Assembly (NCBI RefSeq): GCF_002295065.1
Contig: NZ_NSGG01000002.1
Span: 62,001-126,000 of the forward strand
Direction: 5' to 3'
DNA from: Mesorhizobium sp. WSM3859
Lineage (GTDB): Bacteria; Pseudomonadota; Alphaproteobacteria; Rhizobiales; Rhizobiaceae
DNA: 64,000 nt
The number at the start of each line of letters is the position of its first letter. Position 1 is the stretch's first letter. The notes under the pieces were generated by a model. The model saw only the letters and a list, made by a program, of their open reading frames with translations, had not been told where the DNA came from and did no database searches. Positions 42,458 through 51,927 of this stretch are shown here, one piece after another. The position numbers were made by a program, and so were the translations under genes.

Positions 42458-42895
42458 ATGCTTGGTGACCTTGCCGCCTTCGGCGGACTTTTCCTGACCG
42501 CTTTCGCCGCCGCGACCATCCTGCCGCTGCAATCGGAAGCAGTGCTGGTCGGCCTGCTCCTGGCCGGGACCCATTCGCCGGCCGCGCTGGTTCTGGTCGC
42601 GACAATCGGCAACATGCTTGGTTCGGTGGTCAACTGGCTGCTGGGCCGCGGCATCGATCGCTTCCGCGACCGCAAATGGTTTCCGGCAAAGCCTGCCGCG
42701 CTCGACCGCGCGGCGGCACGCTATCACCGTTACGGCCGATGGAGCCTGCTGCTGAGCTGGGCTCCGGTTGTAGGCGATCCGCTGACGGTGGTGGCCGGCC
42801 TGCTGCGCGAGCCCCTATGGAGCTTCATCGCCATCGTCACCGTTGCCAAGGCCGGCCGGTACCTGGCGGTGGCGGCCGCAACCCTTGGCCTCTAG
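42458..42895 (+). CDS. YqaA-family membrane protein (SNARE-associated/DedA-like)
   Basis: A 145-residue integral protein with hydrophobic segments at ~5-35, ~40-60, ~90-112 and ~120-143. The pattern ATIGNMLGSVVNWLLGRG and RYGRWSLLLSWAPVVGDPLTVVAGLLRE is the SNARE-associated Golgi/DedA domain motif. YqaA proteins are short DedA relatives of uncertain transport function. Ribosome site is weak. Confidence 0.85.
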   Translation: MLGDLAAFGGLFLTAFAAATILPLQSEAVLVGLLLAGTHSPAALVLVATIGNMLGSVVNWLLGRGIDRFRDRKWFPAKPAALDRAAARYHRYGRWSLLLSWAPVVGDPLTVVAGLLREPLWSFIAIVTVAKAGRYLAVAAATLGL

Positions 42896-43054
42896 CCTAG
42901 AGATCCTCATGGCGAAGGCATCCAGCCTGAATTCTCGCGATAGCAAAGCCGCACGGCCAGGGCGGCCGCGACATGCCCCTATGGGCCGGCCTTGGTAAAT
43001 CGCCAAGGCCTTCCGTCGAGCGGTTGAGCGGTTCTATGATGAGTCGCTCTATCT

Positions 43055-43477
43055 TTACGCGGGCACAAGGACGGCGATGCGATGCACGCCGACTTCCTTG
43101 CTGGTATTCGTCGCCTCGTCGGTCTTGCCTTTGGAGCAGGTGTACATGTCACCGACCTTGAGCTTGAATTCCTTGTCCGCCTTCTTGATGGTGAATGCGC
43201 CGGAAGTAATAGTGCACACCATGTCGTTATCCATCACGGTCTGAGGGGCGTGCGCTCCGGGCTGAAACACCACGTCGACAATCGAGATGCTCTTGTAGGC
43301 GGGAATGTCGGAGTTGCCGGTGCCGACCTCGACCACTCTGACGCCCGGCGCGATCTCCTTGCCTTCGTTCGCACCGTACTTCTTTGTTTTCGCAAATGTT
43401 GCCGTTGCGAACAGGGGAGCAACCGTTGCGGCCGTCACGCCGAGCGCGATTGCAGACCTGCGATTCATGGTGTTCAT
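43055..43477 (-). CDS. Exported cupin-domain protein
   Basis: Starts at ATG 43477 (GGGAGG 5 bp upstream), giving 140 residues. The N-terminus MNTMNRRSAIALGVTAATVAP is a twin-arginine-like signal peptide ending near ATFA-K. The mature part is a single cupin: ISIVDVVFQPGAHAPQTVMDNDMVCTITSGAF then KLKVGDMYTCSKGK, though the usual cupin His motif is degenerate. Possibly a small sensor or binding protein of the periplasm; substrate unknown. Faces the cytochrome c gene upstream. Confidence 0.75.
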   Translation of the reverse strand: MNTMNRRSAIALGVTAATVAPLFATATFAKTKKYGANEGKEIAPGVRVVEVGTGNSDIPAYKSISIVDVVFQPGAHAPQTVMDNDMVCTITSGAFTIKKADKEFKLKVGDMYTCSKGKTDEATNTSKEVGVHRIAVLVPA

Positions 43478-43576
43478 CGCATCCTCCCAAAACCTGTCAT
43501 GCACGGATGAGCATGGCTTCAGTATATTAGCACAAACTGATTTGACTGTGCGGAAAAGCGCGTGTCGGTGAGGCCT

Positions 43577-44134
43577 TTACTGCTGCTTTTGCCGGAACTT
43601 CGAATGGCAGCTCGTGCAATCCTGCAGGATCAAGTGCAGGAGGTGTTCGGCCGGCATTTGGGCTGGGTCGGCCTCGGCGCCCGGCCGCTTGCCGAGCAGG
43701 CTGCCGCCATCCATCGGCAGGCCGGTCATGCGCATGTCGGCGGTGATCCCGGGCGGCGCGTTCCCGGCCTTGATCGCGAGCGCATCGGCGAGCCGGCCGA
43801 TATGGCGGGCGAGCGCCTCGAACTGCGGCCGGGCCTGGTCGATCTCCGGTTTGGCGGCCGACGGCGCGCCAAGCGTGCCCTGCGGGAATTCGCCAATCAG
43901 GGCGTCGGTGCGGCCGCTCAGCGTGTCCGCCGCCGCCTTGAAGGCCGCCGGCTCATAGGCGCGCTTGCCGTCGAACATTTCGGCGATCGCCCTGGCGGCG
44001 GTCGCCATCTCCTTCATCGAGGCCTGGCGCGCCGCCACGATGGGATCGCCCGGCCCCGCCACCAGCGACGAGGCAAGGATCAGGGGACCGGCGAGCGCCA
44101 GCAACGCCGCCCCCAGAATGACACGAGACCTCAC
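43577..44134 (-). CDS. Exported c-type cytochrome (cytochrome c' -like)
   Basis: A 185-residue protein with a signal peptide (MRSRVILGAALLALAGPLILASSLVAG) and one heme-c site near its C-terminus (C173-TS-C176-H177), the class II/cytochrome c' arrangement, preceded by a four-helix-like helical body. GTG start at 44134 overlaps the stop of the multicopper oxidase (GTGA), so the two are translationally coupled. Such a cytochrome could accept electrons from the oxidase or protect it. Confidence 0.9.
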   Translation of the reverse strand: MRSRVILGAALLALAGPLILASSLVAGPGDPIVAARQASMKEMATAARAIAEMFDGKRAYEPAAFKAAADTLSGRTDALIGEFPQGTLGAPSAAKPEIDQARPQFEALARHIGRLADALAIKAGNAPPGITADMRMTGLPMDGGSLLGKRPGAEADPAQMPAEHLLHLILQDCTSCHSKFRQKQQ

Positions 44135-45657
44135 GCCTGCACGTCGACGATGCCCATCATGCCGAGCTGCTCATGCTCCAGGATGTGGCAGTGATACATG
44201 CGCGCGCCCGGCCGTTCCTGACGCGTGAGAAGCCGCACCGTCTCGCCACGCGCCACGTTGACTGTATCCTTCCACGCCAGATAGGGCGGCTTGGCGACCT
44301 TGCCGTCGCGTTCGCGCTCGACCACCTGGAACTGCGTGCCGTGGATATGGAACGGATGGTCCATGTCCGCCTGGTTGACGATTTCCCAAAGCTCGGTATC
44401 GCCGGCCCGGGCGATGATGTCGACGCGCCCCATGTCGAACGTCTTGCCGTTGATCAGGAAGTCCATCCCCATGCTCGCGGCATTCATCGTCATGGCCTCG
44501 GTAAGGACGAGGCGGCGGCTGACGCCGGGGGTCCCAAGCGGCGCGATCGGCCGCAGCCGCTCGGGCAGCGGCGGCATCGCCTCGGCCGGCGTTTCGGAAA
44601 CACCGACCGTCAGCAGCGTCAACCCGGCGTCCGTGGGCCGGCCCGGCCCCATCCAGCCGCGGTCGTAGGGAAGTGTGGTGAGCGTGGCGGAACCCGGCCG
44701 GTCGAAGGCGACGACCAGTTCGACGCGCTCGGCCGGGCTGAGCAGGATCTCGTCGGCTGCAACCGGTGCCTCGAGGAGGCCGCCATCGCTGCCGATGACG
44801 GTCATCGAGGCGTTGGCGAAGGCGAGCCTGAGGAAGCGCGCATTGGTGGCGTTGTAGAGCCGCAGGCGCCGCTTCGCGCCCACCGCCACGGCCAGCTTCG
44901 GGTTCTTCTGGCCGTTGACCAGCACATGGTCGCCGACGCGGCCGTTCATCATGTCGATCATGGTGTTGTCGGGCATGGACCCGTCGGCGGCCAGGCGCAG
45001 GTCGGTGAACATCAGCGCGGTATCGCCATAGGCCGCCGGAACCGGATCGGTTTTCGCCTTGATGACGAAGGCGCCGGCAAGGCCGCGATAGACCTGCTCG
45101 GCCGTCCGGCCATGCGGATGCGGGTGATACCAGTAAGTGCCGGCCGAACCCTCGGGCAGATCGAAAGCATAGACGCGGTCGGCGCCCGCTGCGACAGGGT
45201 CCATCGGGTTGCCGTCCTGGTCGGCGGGCACCGGCATGCCGTGCCAGTGAATGGTGCTTGGCTCGCCCTCAATCCGGTTGAAAAAGGTGATCTCGACGCG
45301 GTCGCCCTCATAGGCCTCGATCAATGGCCCTGGACTCGTGCCGTTATAGGCGAGGATCGGCGTGTCCTGGTCGGCCGTGAAGCGCGCCGTGGCGGGCGCG
45401 GCCGTCAGCCGCGCCCTGAACAGACCGGGCCGGCCAGCCTCGTTGGCCAGCAGCGGCAACTCGCGCAAGGGCTGGCCCTCGGGCAGCGACACGGGCCCTT
45501 GCCCCATCGCGCCCATGTCATGGCCGGAATGGTCGCCCATATCCATGCCGGGCATGGAGTCCATGTTCGACCTGTCGTCCATCTTCATCTGCGCCAGCGC
45601 GCGCGGGCCAGCCAGAACCGTCGCCAGGCCTGCCGCCAGAAAACCGCGTCGATGCAT
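44131..45657 (-). CDS. Tat-exported multicopper oxidase (CopA/laccase-like)
   Basis: ATG 45657 with AGGAG 7 bp upstream; product 508 residues starting MHRRGFLAAG, a twin-arginine signal. A Met/His-rich stretch (~residues 24-52, M-x-x-M-x-M-D-M-G-D-H-S-G-H-D) precedes the cupredoxin domains. All copper motifs are intact: H137-W-H-G, Y-H-P-H-P-H-G (177-183), H-P-F-H-I-H, and H489-C-H-x3-H495-x4-M500. Oxidises Cu(I) or phenolics with O2 in the periplasm. Preceded by a promoter of CueR/HmrR type; followed by a cytochrome gene in the same operon. Confidence 0.93.
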   Translation of the reverse strand: MHRRGFLAAGLATVLAGPRALAQMKMDDRSNMDSMPGMDMGDHSGHDMGAMGQGPVSLPEGQPLRELPLLANEAGRPGLFRARLTAAPATARFTADQDTPILAYNGTSPGPLIEAYEGDRVEITFFNRIEGEPSTIHWHGMPVPADQDGNPMDPVAAGADRVYAFDLPEGSAGTYWYHPHPHGRTAEQVYRGLAGAFVIKAKTDPVPAAYGDTALMFTDLRLAADGSMPDNTMIDMMNGRVGDHVLVNGQKNPKLAVAVGAKRRLRLYNATNARFLRLAFANASMTVIGSDGGLLEAPVAADEILLSPAERVELVVAFDRPGSATLTTLPYDRGWMGPGRPTDAGLTLLTVGVSETPAEAMPPLPERLRPIAPLGTPGVSRRLVLTEAMTMNAASMGMDFLINGKTFDMGRVDIIARAGDTELWEIVNQADMDHPFHIHGTQFQVVERERDGKVAKPPYLAWKDTVNVARGETVRLLTRQERPGARMYHCHILEHEQLGMMGIVDVQA

Positions 45658-45707: not shown

Positions 45708-45738
45708 ACGCTAAGGGTTCCAGCGGCTGGAAGGTCAA
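45708..45738 (-). promoter_or_regulatory. CueR/HmrR-type copper-responsive promoter
   Basis: Minus strand: -35 TTGACC (45738-45733), 19-bp spacer holding the perfect dyad TTCCAGCCGCTGGAA (45732-45718), -10 TAGCGT (45713-45708). A 19-bp spacer with a TTCCAG/CTGGAA dyad is the signature of MerR-family copper regulators (CueR, rhizobial HmrR). It lies 51 bp upstream of the multicopper oxidase start; the same DNA may also influence the divergent gene. No regulator gene is in the window. Confidence 0.75.
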
Positions 45739-45840: not shown

Positions 45841-47754
45841 ATGCTTATCCAACCGATCGATTATTTCCTCGTCGCCTGGTTCGTGCTCGCGGCCGGGTCG
45901 ACGCTCTATGTCGGTTTCGACCAATACCGCAACAATCCCGAGCCGGTGGTGATGAAATGGGGGTTCATCCTGGTGACGCTCTATATGGGCCCGCTCGGGC
46001 TGTTGCTCTACGTGCTCGCCGACAAGGAGCCGCGCCCCGGCGAGCACGAAACCTTCACCGAACCGCTCTGGAAGCAGGGCGTCGGCTCGACCATCCACTG
46101 CGTCGCCGGCGACGCCACCGGCATCATCCTTGCCGCGGTCGTCACCGCCACGCTCGGGCTGCCGATGTGGCTCGACCTCATCGTCGAATACCTAGCCGGC
46201 TTTGCCTTCGGCCTGTTCATCTTCCAGTCGCTGTTCATGAAATCGATGATGGGCGGCAGCTATTGGGAGAATGTGAAGAAGAGCTTCCTGCCCGAATTCA
46301 TCTCCATGAACTTCATGATGGCCGGCATGGCGCCGGTCATGAGCTTCCTGATGATGGGCCGCGACATGCGCGCCATGGAACCGGGCGAGCTTCTGTTCTG
46401 GGGCGTGATGTCGCTCGGCGTGATCGCCGGCTTCACACTTGCCTACCCCGCCAATGTCTGGCTGGTCGCGCGCGGCCTGAAGCATGGGCTGATGACCGAG
46501 CGTGCGCGCAAGGTCGGGGCAGCGCGCCATCCTGCCGGAGGTCAGCATGCGCACATGCAAATGCAGCAAGCCGACGCCAGCGGCCATGGCGATCACAAAC
46601 ACGCCACGACCTCTCAAAAAGGCAAGGGAAGCGGCGGCCATCACATGCTCTCGGACGCGACCACGCCGCAGATCGCGGCGCTGGGCGCGGTGTCCGCGCT
46701 GGCCCTGGCGATCGGCATGGCGGCGCCGGCGAACTGGCTGAACCTCAGGCTGTCGGCCCGCGACGTCGGCGGGGTGATCATGCCACAGGGCATGATCATG
46801 GACCGCGACACACCCGCCGAGACCATGCGCGACATGGCGGCGGCCGATCCGCGTCTCGTCACCGCCTCCTATGGCCTCACCGCGAAGGGCGACCAGGAGC
46901 TGCCGTTCCGCATGGAAAACGGCGTGAAGGTGTTCGAGCTCACACCGTCGGTGATCCGCTGGCAGATCCTGCCAAATGTCACGGTCGACGCCTATGCCTA
47001 TAACGGCCAGATCCCGGGACCGCGCATCCATATCCGCCAGGGCGACCGGGTGCGCATCAAGGTCACCAACGGACTGCCGGAAGAGACCACGGTGCACTGG
47101 CATGGTTTGATCCTGCCCAACCAGATGGACGGGCCGGCCGAAATCACCCAGCCGCCGATCGAGCCCGGACAGAGCTATTCCTACGAATTCACCGCCACCC
47201 AGCACGGCACCTATTTCTACCACCCGCACGCCAAGCCCGACCGCACCCAGGCGCTCGGCCTCTATGGCGCGCTGATCATCGATCCCGCCAACCCCGCCGA
47301 CGAGGTCGCCGCCGACCACGACTATGTCATCGAGCTGCAGGAATGGCTGGTGCGCGAAGGCCTGACCTATCCGTCGATGCCGATGGACGGCGGCATGCCG
47401 AACTTCTTCACCATCAACGGCAAGGCCTATCCGTCGACCGATACGATCCGCATGAAGGTCGGCGAGACGCTGAAGGTCCGCTTCATCGGCACCAACAACG
47501 GCTTCATCCATCCGATGCACATCCATGGCGGGCCGTTCGAAGTGGTCGCCCGCGACGGCGAGGCGATTCCCGCCACCGCGCGTTTCCTTGCCGACACAAT
47601 CAATGTCGGACCGGGCCAGCGCTATGATGTCGTGTGGAAGGCACAGCGACCCGGCAAGTGGCTCATCCACTGCCACATCGCGCATCACACCACGAACAAC
47701 AATGCCGAGGAGAACGGCGGCGGCGGGCTGATGGTTGTTATCGATGTCACGTGA
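45841..47754 (+). CDS. DUF4396 membrane domain fused to a multicopper oxidase
   Basis: A 637-residue fusion. Residues 1-215 form a multi-TM region with the conserved feel of DUF4396 (helices near 5-25, 40-60, 90-110, 112-135, 155-172, 185-210). A His/Gln/Lys-rich linker (~230-268, with H-A-H-M-Q-M-Q-Q and GHGDHKH) follows, then another TM at ~277-298, then a cupredoxin oxidase: H419-W-H-G, YHPHA 460-464, HPMHIHG 557-563, and H610-C-H-x3-H616. After the last His the usual axial Met comes late (M631) past an insert TTNNNAEENGGGGL. Divergent from the copper operon. Confidence 0.85.
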   Translation: MLIQPIDYFLVAWFVLAAGSTLYVGFDQYRNNPEPVVMKWGFILVTLYMGPLGLLLYVLADKEPRPGEHETFTEPLWKQGVGSTIHCVAGDATGIILAAVVTATLGLPMWLDLIVEYLAGFAFGLFIFQSLFMKSMMGGSYWENVKKSFLPEFISMNFMMAGMAPVMSFLMMGRDMRAMEPGELLFWGVMSLGVIAGFTLAYPANVWLVARGLKHGLMTERARKVGAARHPAGGQHAHMQMQQADASGHGDHKHATTSQKGKGSGGHHMLSDATTPQIAALGAVSALALAIGMAAPANWLNLRLSARDVGGVIMPQGMIMDRDTPAETMRDMAAADPRLVTASYGLTAKGDQELPFRMENGVKVFELTPSVIRWQILPNVTVDAYAYNGQIPGPRIHIRQGDRVRIKVTNGLPEETTVHWHGLILPNQMDGPAEITQPPIEPGQSYSYEFTATQHGTYFYHPHAKPDRTQALGLYGALIIDPANPADEVAADHDYVIELQEWLVREGLTYPSMPMDGGMPNFFTINGKAYPSTDTIRMKVGETLKVRFIGTNNGFIHPMHIHGGPFEVVARDGEAIPATARFLADTINVGPGQRYDVVWKAQRPGKWLIHCHIAHHTTNNNAEENGGGGLMVVIDVT

Positions 47755-48241: not shown

Positions 48242-49309
48242 ATGTCCGCCAACGCCTACATCAACCGGATCGCCACAGCGGTTCCGGAACACGAAGTCCA
48301 CCAGTTCTACCTGTGCTACGCGGCCTCCATGCTAACCGCCGATCGCAGGAGAATATTCCAGCGCATGGCCGGCCTTGCCGGCATCGAGCACCGCTTTTCC
48401 TGCTTTGCGCCCGCCCTCGACCCCGAAGGGATGTCGGCCGACCTTGCCGGGACATTCAGGCGCGGCGCGTTTCCTGGAACGGCCGCCAGGATGGCTATGT
48501 TCAGCCAAGCAGCACCCATTCTGGCGCAAAAGGCCGTCGACGGACTGCGGCTTGGCGGCGAGGCATCGCGCATCACCCATCTTATCATCACCACCTGCAC
48601 CGGTTTCTCCGCGCCGGGAATCGACCTCGACCTTGCCGCACGCTGCGGCCTGCCGGACGGCATCGAACGCACGATGATCGGGTTCATGGGCTGCTATGCC
48701 GCGGTCAACGCCCTCAAGCTTGCCCGCCACATCGTCCGCTCCGACCCGCTGGCGAGGATTCTTGTGGTCAATATCGAAGTCTGCACGCTGCATCTGCGAG
48801 AAACCACCGAACTGGAAAAGCTGCTATCCTTCTGCCTTTGGGGCGATGGCTGCGCGGCAACGCTCGTCACCGCCGAGCCGCTCGGCATCGAGCTCGACAG
48901 CTTCCGCTGCACCGTCGCGGATGAGCGACGGGAGCTGATGACCTGGGATATCCGCGACCACGGCTTCGATATGTTTCTTTCCGGCAAGGTGCCTGCGGCG
49001 GTCCAGGAAACGTTGCGAAGCAACCAGGACGCTATCCTCGGTGGGCGGCCGCCGGAGGACATCGACCTCTGGGCCGTGCATCCCGGTGGGCGCAGTATTC
49101 TTGATGCCGTCGAGAGGGCGCTCGATCTCGCGCCGGCCGCGCTCGGGCCGTCGCGCGAGGTGCTGCGCCGATACGGTAACATGTCGTCGGCGACGGTCAT
49201 GTTCGTGATGGAAGAGATGCTGAAGGCGCCAAGCGATCAGCTCGGCTGCGGCATGTCGTTCGGACCAGGACTGACGGCCGAGACCATGTTGTTCCGAACC
49301 GTGTCATGA
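48242..49309 (+). CDS. Type III polyketide synthase (chalcone synthase-like)
   Basis: A 355-residue homodimeric thiolase-fold synthase. Catalytic Cys151 (IGFMGCYAAVNALKLA), His280 (WAVHPGGRSI) and Asn313 (RYGNMSSATVMF) form the Cys-His-Asn triad, and the gatekeeper/product-end GFGPGLTAE-like sequence FGPGLTAETML is present. It elongates an acyl-CoA starter with malonyl-CoA and cyclises the chain. First gene of a three-gene operon whose other members overlap by 4 bp. AGGGAG lies 9 bp before the start. Confidence 0.95.
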   Translation: MSANAYINRIATAVPEHEVHQFYLCYAASMLTADRRRIFQRMAGLAGIEHRFSCFAPALDPEGMSADLAGTFRRGAFPGTAARMAMFSQAAPILAQKAVDGLRLGGEASRITHLIITTCTGFSAPGIDLDLAARCGLPDGIERTMIGFMGCYAAVNALKLARHIVRSDPLARILVVNIEVCTLHLRETTELEKLLSFCLWGDGCAATLVTAEPLGIELDSFRCTVADERRELMTWDIRDHGFDMFLSGKVPAAVQETLRSNQDAILGGRPPEDIDLWAVHPGGRSILDAVERALDLAPAALGPSREVLRRYGNMSSATVMFVMEEMLKAPSDQLGCGMSFGPGLTAETMLFRTVS

Positions 49310-50028
49310 ACGCGCTCGAGCAACGGACACTCGTCCCGGAAATCCTCGATGGCCTTGCCGCGGACGATCCGCGGGCGCTCCGCTCGCGGCGCGATCTCGC
49401 CCGCATCAACGCGCTGATGTTCCAGGTGCCGATCATGGTCTCGCTCATGAGGACATTCATGGCCAAGCCGCCAGGCCGCATCCTTGAGATCGGCGCCGGC
49501 GACGGCACCTTCATGCTGAAAGTGGCGCGGCGCATGGCAAGAGACTGGCCGCAGGTGGAGCTGACGATGCTCGACCGCATCGGCCTCGTCACCCCTGGGC
49601 TTACGACGGATTTCGCCGGTCTGGGATGGAAGCTCGAAACCGCCACCGACGATGTCTTCGACTGGGCGCAGAAGGCGGATAGCGTGGCCTTCGATGTGAT
49701 CACGGTCAACCTGTTTCTACATCATTTCGACGACGCCGGCCTGCTGCGCCTGTTTTCGCTGCTGGGTCGCAGGGCGCCATTGCTGCTGGCGACGGAACCG
49801 CGGAGGAAGGGATTGGCGCTCGCGGCGACCCGCCTTCTGCCGGCGATCGGCGCCAATGACGTGACCAGGCATGACGCCGCCCAGAGCGTGCGCGCCGGCT
49901 TCCGCGGCAGCGAACTTTCCGATCTCTGGAGCGCCGCGGGCGGACGGCCGCTCGAGGAGCGGTGCGCCGGTCCCTTCTCCCATGTCTTTGCCGGCGCCGC
50001 GTCGATGCCTGCCGCAAATGCGCCATGA
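49306..50028 (+). CDS. Class I SAM-dependent methyltransferase
   Basis: A 240-residue methyltransferase with motif I I-G-A-G-D-G-T-F (LEIGAGDGTFMLKVARRM), motif II TMLDRIGL and D-V-I-T-V-N-L-F-L-H-H-F-D post-I element. ATG 49306 overlaps the polyketide synthase stop (ATGA), a sign of translational coupling. Likely O- or C-methylates the polyketide product. No regiospecificity can be inferred. Confidence 0.92.
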   Translation: MNALEQRTLVPEILDGLAADDPRALRSRRDLARINALMFQVPIMVSLMRTFMAKPPGRILEIGAGDGTFMLKVARRMARDWPQVELTMLDRIGLVTPGLTTDFAGLGWKLETATDDVFDWAQKADSVAFDVITVNLFLHHFDDAGLLRLFSLLGRRAPLLLATEPRRKGLALAATRLLPAIGANDVTRHDAAQSVRAGFRGSELSDLWSAAGGRPLEERCAGPFSHVFAGAASMPAANAP

Positions 50029-51278
50029 GACCGGCATCGACCCACGATGCGATCGTCATCGGCGCCGGCCCGGCTGGCACCTCGGCGGCGCTGGCGCTAA
50101 TCCGGCGCGGTTGGGCCGTAGCGATCGTGGAAAGGAACGTTTTTCCGCGTCGCAAGGTGTGCGGCGAATATATCTCGGCAAGCAATCTCGCGCTCCTCGA
50201 GCGGCTGGAGATTGGCGATGCGTGGCGGGCCGAGGCAGGCCCCGAAATTCGCCGGGTCGGCCTCTTTTCCGGCGACACCAGCGTCGAGGCGCCTATGCCG
50301 AGGTCCGGACCAGCGGCAGGAAACGGTTTTGGTCGTGCGCTCGGCCGCGATGTGCTGGACTCCTTGCTGTTGAATGCGGCCCGATCGGCCGGCGCGGAAG
50401 TCTTCCAGCCGTGCCGCGCCACCGCAATCGAACGCGATGGCGCCTGCCAGGCGGTGCGAATCCAGGCAGGAGCCGCGAATTCCCGCGACGAGGCCGCGAT
50501 CCTGCGGGCGCCGGTGATTGTCGCCGCGCACGGCTCGTGGGAGCCGGGGCCGCTGCCCAGCCATTTCGCGAAGAAAAGCCACCCCTCGGACCTGCTCGGC
50601 TTCAAGGCGCATTTTTCAGGATCGACGCTGCCGCCCGACCTGATGCCACTGCTGACGTTTCCCGGCGGCTATGGTGGCATGGTGCTCGCAGACCATGGGC
50701 GCATGTCCCTCTCCTGCTGCATAAGGCGCGATGTGCTCGCCCGGTTGCGCGGCAGCCATGCCCGCGAGCGCGGTAGCCAGATCTCCGCGGCCGAAACCAT
50801 CGAGCATCATATTGTGGCGAGATGCCGAGGCGCGCGGGAAGCCTTGGCACAAGCGCATCTCGACAGTCCATGGCTTGCTGCCGGCCCGATTCGTCCAGGC
50901 ATCCGCCCTGGCTACGCGGCGGACATCTTCCGCGTTGGCAATGCCGCCGGCGAGTCGCATCCGATCATCGCCGAAGGCATATCGATGGCGCTTCAGTCCG
51001 GCTGGCTCCTGGCTATGGAACTGAGCGAGGCGGCAAGCGGGCAGAGAGGACGCGAGGCGGCCGGCAGACGGTATGAGGCGGCCTGGAGAGAATTGTTCTC
51101 GACCCGCATCCATGCTGCCGATGCCATCGCCCGGTTGGCGGTTGGCACCGGCGGCGCTGCCTTGATGGAGGCGGTCGTCCGCAATTTCCCGCGGGCGCTC
51201 ACCTTGGGAGCTCGGCTTAGCGGCAAGACGAAACCCGTTCCCGGCTTGACCGAGGCACGCCCGGCGGGGGGCGGCTGA
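50025..51278 (+). CDS. FAD-dependent oxidoreductase (geranylgeranyl reductase/monooxygenase family)
   Basis: A 417-residue flavoprotein starting at ATG 50025, which overlaps the methyltransferase stop (ATGA). N-terminal FAD Rossmann motif DAIVIGAGPAGTSAALALIRRG, then VERNVFPRRKVCGEYIS (the P-x-x-K-x-C-G of the geranylgeranyl-reductase group), and GNAAGESHPIIAEGISMALQSGWLLA, the second FAD motif. Probably hydroxylates or reduces the polyketide. This three-gene set is a recognised type III PKS cluster arrangement in proteobacteria; the product is unknown. Confidence 0.9.
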   Translation: MRPASTHDAIVIGAGPAGTSAALALIRRGWAVAIVERNVFPRRKVCGEYISASNLALLERLEIGDAWRAEAGPEIRRVGLFSGDTSVEAPMPRSGPAAGNGFGRALGRDVLDSLLLNAARSAGAEVFQPCRATAIERDGACQAVRIQAGAANSRDEAAILRAPVIVAAHGSWEPGPLPSHFAKKSHPSDLLGFKAHFSGSTLPPDLMPLLTFPGGYGGMVLADHGRMSLSCCIRRDVLARLRGSHARERGSQISAAETIEHHIVARCRGAREALAQAHLDSPWLAAGPIRPGIRPGYAADIFRVGNAAGESHPIIAEGISMALQSGWLLAMELSEAASGQRGREAAGRRYEAAWRELFSTRIHAADAIARLAVGTGGAALMEAVVRNFPRALTLGARLSGKTKPVPGLTEARPAGGG

Positions 51279-51447: not shown

Positions 51448-51927
51448 ATGGCTCAGCATACGATCCCCCACAATCCGCACAGCACGGCAAGCATTGCGGG
51501 CCATCCCATCCACGCAATGCTGATCCCTTTCCCGATCGCCTTCTTCGTCGCGACTTTCGTCTGCGACCTGATCTTCTGGCGAACCGGCAACCCAGGCTGG
51601 GTTTCCGCGTCGCTCTGGCTTCTCGGCGCGGGCCTGATCATGGCCGCGCTGGCCGCTCTTGCCGGCCTCACCGATGTGCTCGGCGATACCCAGATCCGCA
51701 ATCTTCAGGACGCATGGCTTCATGCCGGCGGCAACGTGATCGTCGTCCTGATCGAACTCTACAACTGGTACTCGCGATATAGCCATGCGGAGGCGGCCGT
51801 GGTCCCCGTTGGCCTGATGCTGTCGCTGATCGTCGTTCTCATTCTTCTGTTCACCGGCTGGAAGGGCTGGGGAATGGTTTATCGGCATCATGTCGGTGTC
51901 GCCGATGGGACGGACGAAACGCCCTGA
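51448..51927 (+). CDS. DUF2231 membrane protein
   Basis: A 159-residue protein starting at ATG 51448 (GGGAGG 6 bp upstream). Three to four TM helices (HPIHAMLIPFPIAFFVATFVCDL, WLLGAGLIMAALAALAGLTDVLG, HAGGNVIVVLIELYNWYSRYS and LMLSLIVVLILLFTGWKGW). The N-terminal G-H-P-I-H-x-M-L-I-P-F-P-I is the DUF2231 signature. Family is associated with gas- or redox-related membranes in some bacteria; function unclear. Separate from the PKS operon by 170 bp. Confidence 0.85.
   Translation: MAQHTIPHNPHSTASIAGHPIHAMLIPFPIAFFVATFVCDLIFWRTGNPGWVSASLWLLGAGLIMAALAALAGLTDVLGDTQIRNLQDAWLHAGGNVIVVLIELYNWYSRYSHAEAAVVPVGLMLSLIVVLILLFTGWKGWGMVYRHHVGVADGTDETP

Follow-up and report, generated by a model that had tools for sequence, protein, structure and literature searches.

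The Cu(I) oxidases of the CopA/PcoA and CueO families are three-domain soluble proteins that carry a Met-rich segment. Among shorter enzymes, the solved structures 3g5w (Nitrosomonas europaea) and 2zwn (from a metagenome) belong to what we take to be the group labelled "type C" two-domain oxidases. In type B two-domain oxidases, it is the C-terminal domain that holds the type 1 copper, and the authors of a study on the Cellvibrio japonicus enzyme CjMCO state that they know of no His-rich N-terminal region such as that of CjMCO in other multicopper oxidases (PMC13151041). A three-domain plasmid laccase (PMC8753806) and a Zn/Cd-responsive Mesorhizobium multicopper oxidase (PMC3668242) have also been described; no correspondence between the latter and the gene studied here could be established. 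Pfam assigns no function to the membrane domain DUF4396, whose name is mentioned in passing in a single paper of the searched literature; searches of the same literature for PF14342/IPR025509, and for DUF2231 together with copper, returned nothing. No description of a DUF4396-oxidase fusion was present in the accessible text of the literature matches listed for two-domain, membrane-anchored and fused multicopper oxidases and for Mesorhizobium. In the databases, members are annotated as "DUF4396 domain-containing" or "multicopper oxidase domain-containing" proteins.

Here, we analysed such a fusion gene in Mesorhizobium sp. WSM3859. The window, by which we mean the whole stretch of DNA that was analysed, is 64,000 nucleotides long, and the gene is organised as follows.

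45841-47754, + strand: fusion gene of 637 amino acids, made up of DUF4396, a His-rich linker, TM7, a Met-rich segment and a two-domain multicopper oxidase
45853-46026, + strand: predicted membrane helices 1 and 2, of which helix 2 is broken (residues 5-62), not part of the Pfam core, from AlphaFold2 and hydropathy
46069-46482, + strand: DUF4396 (PF14342) core, residues 77-214, with four further predicted long helices, from Pfam and the model
46096-46113, + strand: H86-C87-x-x-G90-D91 motif in TM3, from the alignment
46504-46656, + strand: His-rich low-complexity linker, residues 222-272, putatively cytoplasmic, from the alignment (pLDDT <50 at 222-268)
46663-46734, + strand: TM7, residues 275-298, from the model and hydropathy
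46765-46845, + strand: Met-rich segment after TM7, residues 309-335, putatively periplasmic, with M314, M318, M320, M329 and M332
46960-47289, + strand: cupredoxin domain 1 (Cu-oxidase_3, residues 374-483), with HWHG and HPH motifs and without a type 1 Cys
47311-47751, + strand: cupredoxin domain 2 (Cu-oxidase_2 at 517-619), with HPMHIH and HCHxxHH motifs and the type 1 Cys611
47668-47733, + strand: type 1 loop, residues 610-631, with an invariant Leu630 at the axial position, as judged by alignment

A preliminary description of the sequence had proposed that a single 637-residue chain joins a DUF4396-like membrane domain to a multicopper oxidase. This is borne out by 637 codons that are open on the + strand with zero internal stops and by Pfam matches to both halves. 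No stop lies between the halves, and a frameshift is very unlikely, most relatives being equally clean, as detailed below. The DUF4396-like nature of the N-terminal part was likewise confirmed, PF14342 being matched at 138.7 bits (gathering cut-off 27) over profile positions 2-141 of 141. An AlphaFold2 model of the full chain (monomer; 46 sequences) had a mean pLDDT of 79.8. Residues 5-210 formed six long helical segments, with a break in the second, and the part after TM7 was beta-rich. Modelling residues 1-222 on their own gave closely similar helices.

Relatives of the fusion were found at 145 places in a scan of species-level genomes, the closest of them in Mesorhizobium. The loci considered below number 79 (the best 80 of the 145 relatives). 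In 73 of them the matching stretch was examined, and in 66 it forms a single clean frame. The remaining seven contain a stop or shift inside the match (L045, L072, L073, L081, L084, L085 and L088); in the Chloroflexota locus L081, the stop falls between the two halves. The phyla with a clean frame include Pseudomonadota, Acidobacteriota, Gemmatimonadota, Nitrospirota and Actinomycetota. For the main alignment, the 66 loci and the window were aligned and 47 rows were kept at <93% identity; loci with a partial match or a start at a contig edge (L024, L075, L076, L077, L080 and L086) were left out. A second alignment, A1, holds 46 rows, since L091 was left out of it and of the linker count on account of an insert.

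The oxidase half was matched by Cu-oxidase_3 and Cu-oxidase_2 well above the cut-off, with an additional Cu-oxidase match overlapping that of Cu-oxidase_2. All 11 copper-ligand residues are invariant in the 47 dereplicated rows: His 419, 421, 461 and 463 in domain 1, and His 557, 560, 562, 610, 612 and 616 together with Cys611 in domain 2. The trinuclear ligand set (H419, 421, 461, 463, 560, 562, 610 and 612) is thus complete in every row. The type 1 Cys lies in the C-terminal domain in all 47 rows, and domain 1 has HPH and no Cys. The proposal of a full cupredoxin oxidase therefore holds as to the kind of enzyme and fails as to domain number, which is two cupredoxin domains and not three. The best solved matches, by sequence and by fold alike, were 2zwn (titled a two-domain laccase) and 3g5w, both of two-domain length; three-domain oxidases rank among the next rows. 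Domain 1 carries YHPH where 3g5w and 2zwn have YHCH, so that the N-terminal type 1 site that marks type C is missing. Because HCH is in domain 2 and HPH in domain 1, the oxidase half is, by its predicted anatomy, a type B two-domain multicopper oxidase in the sense of PMC13151041. Against the profiles of the three-domain families, the fusion scored below the curated cut-offs (173.2 vs 478.95 bits for CopA/PcoA, TIGR01480; 106.8 vs 525 bits for CueO, NF008205).

The last copper motif had been read as carrying an insert that displaces the axial Met to position 631. The distance is correct, Met631 being 15 residues from His616. However, 38 of the 47 dereplicated rows have Met at residue 631 and the other 9 have Thr, so Met631 is no essential axial ligand, and its candidacy was ruled out; residue 630 is Leu in all 47. 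Nor is the loop an insert: it is the normal loop of the fusion family, and domain 2 of 3g5w has a comparable HTTN..GG loop. We infer from the alignment that Leu630 occupies the axial position, the monomer model being of low confidence here (pLDDT <50 at residues 617-623).

Between the two halves, the predicted His-rich linker (222-272) followed by an additional transmembrane segment was recovered, a hydrophobic helix spanning residues ~275-298. This helix precedes the oxidase, in agreement with the proposed membrane tethering, and by eye no separate export signal was seen in the chain. The linker is fast-evolving (mean pairwise identity 23%) but keeps a median of 6 His (range 2-15), and 40 of 46 rows have 4 or more. 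The tail after TM6 holds 9 Lys/Arg vs 4 Asp/Glu, and by the positive-inside rule the linker is probably cytoplasmic, opposite a periplasmic oxidase. Since it would then lie on the far side of the membrane, the linker is unlikely to load the oxidase directly, which argues against the role of metal-loading linker first suggested for it. The conserved segment after TM7 appears to be the better candidate: M314, M329 and M332 are found in 47 of 47 rows, M318 in 46 and M320 in 43, and each row holds 4 or 5 Met in residues 309-335.

In two loci, L091 and L087, a DUF2231-like membrane domain is inserted inside the His-rich linker, giving a three-part fusion. The L091 insert matches PF09990 at 112.5 bits, and its hydropathy suggests four helices, an even number, so that the orientation of the chain would be kept. 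The L087 insert is 45% identical to a DUF2231 membrane gene of the window, which lies at 51448-51927, 3.7 kb downstream of the fusion.

In the DUF4396 half, H86 and C87 are present in 47 of 47 dereplicated rows and D91 in 46, and helix 5 is Met-rich. C87 and G90 are also nearly invariant across 25 diverse DUF4396 members. Among 21 unfused members, HCxxGC occurs in 15, HCxxGD in 2 and neither in 4, and a Cys stands at the D91 position in 19. Foldseek returned no solved fold for the DUF4396 model at E <= 0.001. VIA-align superposed 109 of its residues on the TRIC structure 5wuf at 5% identity, with a Z of 7.1, which for helical bundles is within the tool's chance range, and hhalign gave a probability of 0.2% for the TRIC cation channels (PF03458). 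Each other Pfam family compared with the 25 sampled members matches only one or two of them. Sub-threshold DUF4396 matches in two ABC-transporter-like proteins (L131, L132) and an MlaE-like permease (L133) were judged by eye to be chance matches. One further locus (L121:7035-7730) has DUF4396 in a 468-aa open frame with a cytochrome c-like CxxCH stretch, recognised by eye, on its N-terminal side.

The genomic context was examined with 30 copper-type reference proteins as queries, the fusion's own match being excluded. At least one copper-type neighbour was present in 46 of the 79 fusion loci (best 80 of 145 relatives) and in 41 of the 65 that span at least 10 kb, compared to 1 of 22 stand-alone DUF4396 loci (12.5-14 kb) in the identical test. 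It should be noted that these counts are not independent, because the references come mostly from plasmids with the fusion and many loci are from related Mesorhizobium. Moreover, 24 of the 65 longer fusion loci lack any copper-type neighbour of the kinds sought, which counts against a copper function. Two Variovorax loci have consecutive genes for a P-type ATPase, CueR and the fusion, all on the same strand. Stand-alone DUF4396 genes lie mostly away from copper genes and thus lend no support to copper handling throughout the family; a Pfam scan of 20 neighbouring proteins, drawn from 11 of the 22 loci, revealed no common theme. One of these genes, L128, adjoins CopB and a multicopper oxidase.

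In the window itself, the surroundings of the fusion gene are as follows.

44131-45657, - strand: divergent multicopper oxidase of CueO/CopA type with a Met-rich start, from profile matches, the start codon picked by eye
45718-45732, no strand assigned: CueR/HmrR-like dyad TTCCAGCGGCTGGAA, whose TTGACC reads toward the divergent oxidase gene
48242-51278, + strand: type III polyketide synthase, methyltransferase and FAD oxidoreductase, directly after the fusion

Beside the divergent oxidase, at 42458-44134, lie a VTT-domain gene (+ strand) and cupin-like and cytochrome c-prime genes (- strand). Among the 79 fusion loci (best 80 of 145), 14 contain a relative of the VTT gene and 7 contain one of the cytochrome c-prime gene.

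The dyad pattern TTCCA(3-6)TGGAA, which we take to be the core of CueR/HmrR operators, has a single match in the 64-kb window, and this match falls in the gap between the fusion and the divergent CueO-like gene (183 bp, if the latter starts at the ATG ending at 45655). Of 66 regions of 400 bp directly upstream of the fusion, 13 contain a dyad, namely that of the window and those of 12 of 65 loci (L078 was left out, having <400 bp upstream). For comparison, when the loci were cut into 2098 tiles of 400 bp, with the upstream tiles among them, 14 tiles had one, and the rate in block-shuffled upstream regions was 0.0007. Two observations count against a copper function: 53 of the 66 regions lack the dyad, and in the window its TTGACC side faces the divergent gene and points away from the fusion. 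In L033, L036, L037, L062 and L087, TTGACC faces the fusion. The host genome encodes a CueR above the cut-off (166.4 vs 147.4 bits).

In our view, the fusion is likely to serve copper homeostasis as a Cu(I) oxidase that is anchored in the membrane and works in the periplasm. The oxidase would stand in the periplasm, the chain presumably forming a trimer, and Cu(I) at the inner membrane or in the periplasm would be captured by the Met-rich segment. It would then be oxidised to Cu(II) at a type 1 site with a non-ligating Leu in the axial position, and the electrons would pass to the trinuclear centre, where O2 would be reduced to water. DUF4396 may bind or pass Cu(I) through C87, H86 and D91 and the Met-lined helix 5.

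The DUF4396 half may thus do more than anchor the oxidase, and delivery of Cu(I) by this domain is plausible, if doubtful. A bolder version, which we put forward only tentatively, makes DUF4396-TM7 a new type of Cu(I) channel or permease, which would take metal from the membrane or from the cytoplasmic His-rich linker and supply it to the Met-rich segment as well as to the oxidase, both halves of the chain being trimeric; if true, this would be a transport-coupled copper oxidase in one chain. Conversely, DUF4396 could be a mere membrane anchor or signal for the oxidase, with no chemistry of its own. The transmembrane helix directly ahead of the oxidase is kept and any membrane domain could tether an oxidase; for that purpose, however, TM7 by itself would be enough. 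Moreover, no part of the chain is better conserved than the DUF4396 half (mean pairwise identity over 47 rows of 82%, vs 71% for cupredoxin domain 1 and 78% for domain 2), with H86, C87, E116, Q129, S155 and N157 invariant in the 46 rows of A1, and DUF4396, the linker and TM7 are also found without the oxidase (L009, L010, L096 and L125). An anchor alone is therefore rather unlikely.

It is also unlikely that the oxidase acts on the quinol pool or on a metal other than Cu(I), for instance Mn(II) or Fe(II). The neighbours and the operator are of copper-resistance type, although this does not fix the substrate. In favour of such other substrates, a characterised type B two-domain oxidase has, according to PMC13151041, a broad substrate specificity, and type 1 sites that lack an axial Met are higher in potential.

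In the host lineage, the three genes that follow the fusion on the same strand raise the idea that the enzyme is a laccase whose substrates would be the phenolic lipids or quinones produced by this type III polyketide operon. The synthase-methyltransferase-FAD trio also follows the fusion in 6 other Mesorhizobium loci, and a seventh has the synthase and methyltransferase before a contig edge. Within the 79 loci (best 80 of 145), however, the synthase was found in only 7, all named Mesorhizobium, and the other 72 lack it in flanks of up to 6 kb (shorter in some), whereas copper-type genes recur across phyla. This makes a phenolic-lipid laccase a minor rival, which we hold to be improbable.

The Cu(I) oxidase reading concerns a widely distributed gene. 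The architecture had been called unusual, which it is among oxidases; rare it is not, as there are the 145 related places, and in 28 plasmid records (split genes and two-piece copies included) a single place covers 80% or more of the chain. In the genus, the fusion is an accessory gene, found in one frame in 7 of 25 genomes, the window's own counted. In 398 sampled genomes of the phylum, DUF4396 was above the cut-off in 24, and 3 of 25 matches lay in a frame of at least 600 aa, so that most DUF4396 proteins of the sampled phylum are unfused. Plasmids of Nostoc and Chroococcidiopsis carry separate annotated genes for DUF4396 and a copper oxidase, side by side and ordered as in the fusion, and one Deinococcus plasmid has DUF4396 and then the oxidase as neighbours, the oxidase frame being unlisted there. 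The Sinorhizobium meliloti megaplasmids (H20-H25 and H30-H32) carry two-piece relatives without a listed gene, in a plasmid table that lists no pseudogenes; these are perhaps decayed copies.

In a tree of the DUF4396 half, 34 fused rows formed one clade (98/94), with the split and oxidase-free rows outside it, several on long branches. Phyla are mixed within the fused clade, which suggests horizontal spread. In the oxidase tree, the split rows (L081 and L093-L095) were not separated from the fused rows, so that this tree speaks neither for nor against a single fusion event. Although split versions occur as neighbouring genes, an assembly artefact or a chance read-through of two such genes has next to no credibility: a frameshift or false join is very unlikely because 66 of 73 relatives, at separate loci, read as one clean frame, and the fused clade is supported.

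How does the fusion compare with known systems? With the type B two-domain oxidases (SLAC and CjMCO), it shares two cupredoxin domains, a type 1 Cys in domain 2 and complete trinuclear ligands; it differs from them in its seven-helix membrane module, in Leu and not Met at the axial position, and in having 3g5w and 2zwn as its closest solved sequences. Those two structures, the best matches in sequence and fold, show the reverse arrangement, with HCH in domain 1 and HDH in domain 2, even if domain 2 of 3g5w shares the HTTN..GG-type loop. CjMCO also has a His-rich stretch ahead of its oxidase (PMC13151041), whereas that of the fusion sits beyond TM7 and recurs across a family. The copper-resistance context, multicopper chemistry and Met-rich segment recall the Cu(I) oxidases CopA/PcoA and CueO, from which the fusion differs in not being a three-domain soluble protein. 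Like other DUF4396 proteins it matches the family profile in full, but the fused rows have HCxxGD where the 21 unfused members mostly have HCxxGC. The fusion gives DUF4396 a concrete partner, a testable Cu(I)-handling hypothesis and invariant residues to mutate. It also represents a widespread copper-oxidase design, on plasmids and in several phyla, in which the enzyme is coupled to a membrane module; to our knowledge, models built on soluble CueO/CopA omit such coupling. The parts are of known kinds, and what is new is their combination and a testable role for DUF4396.
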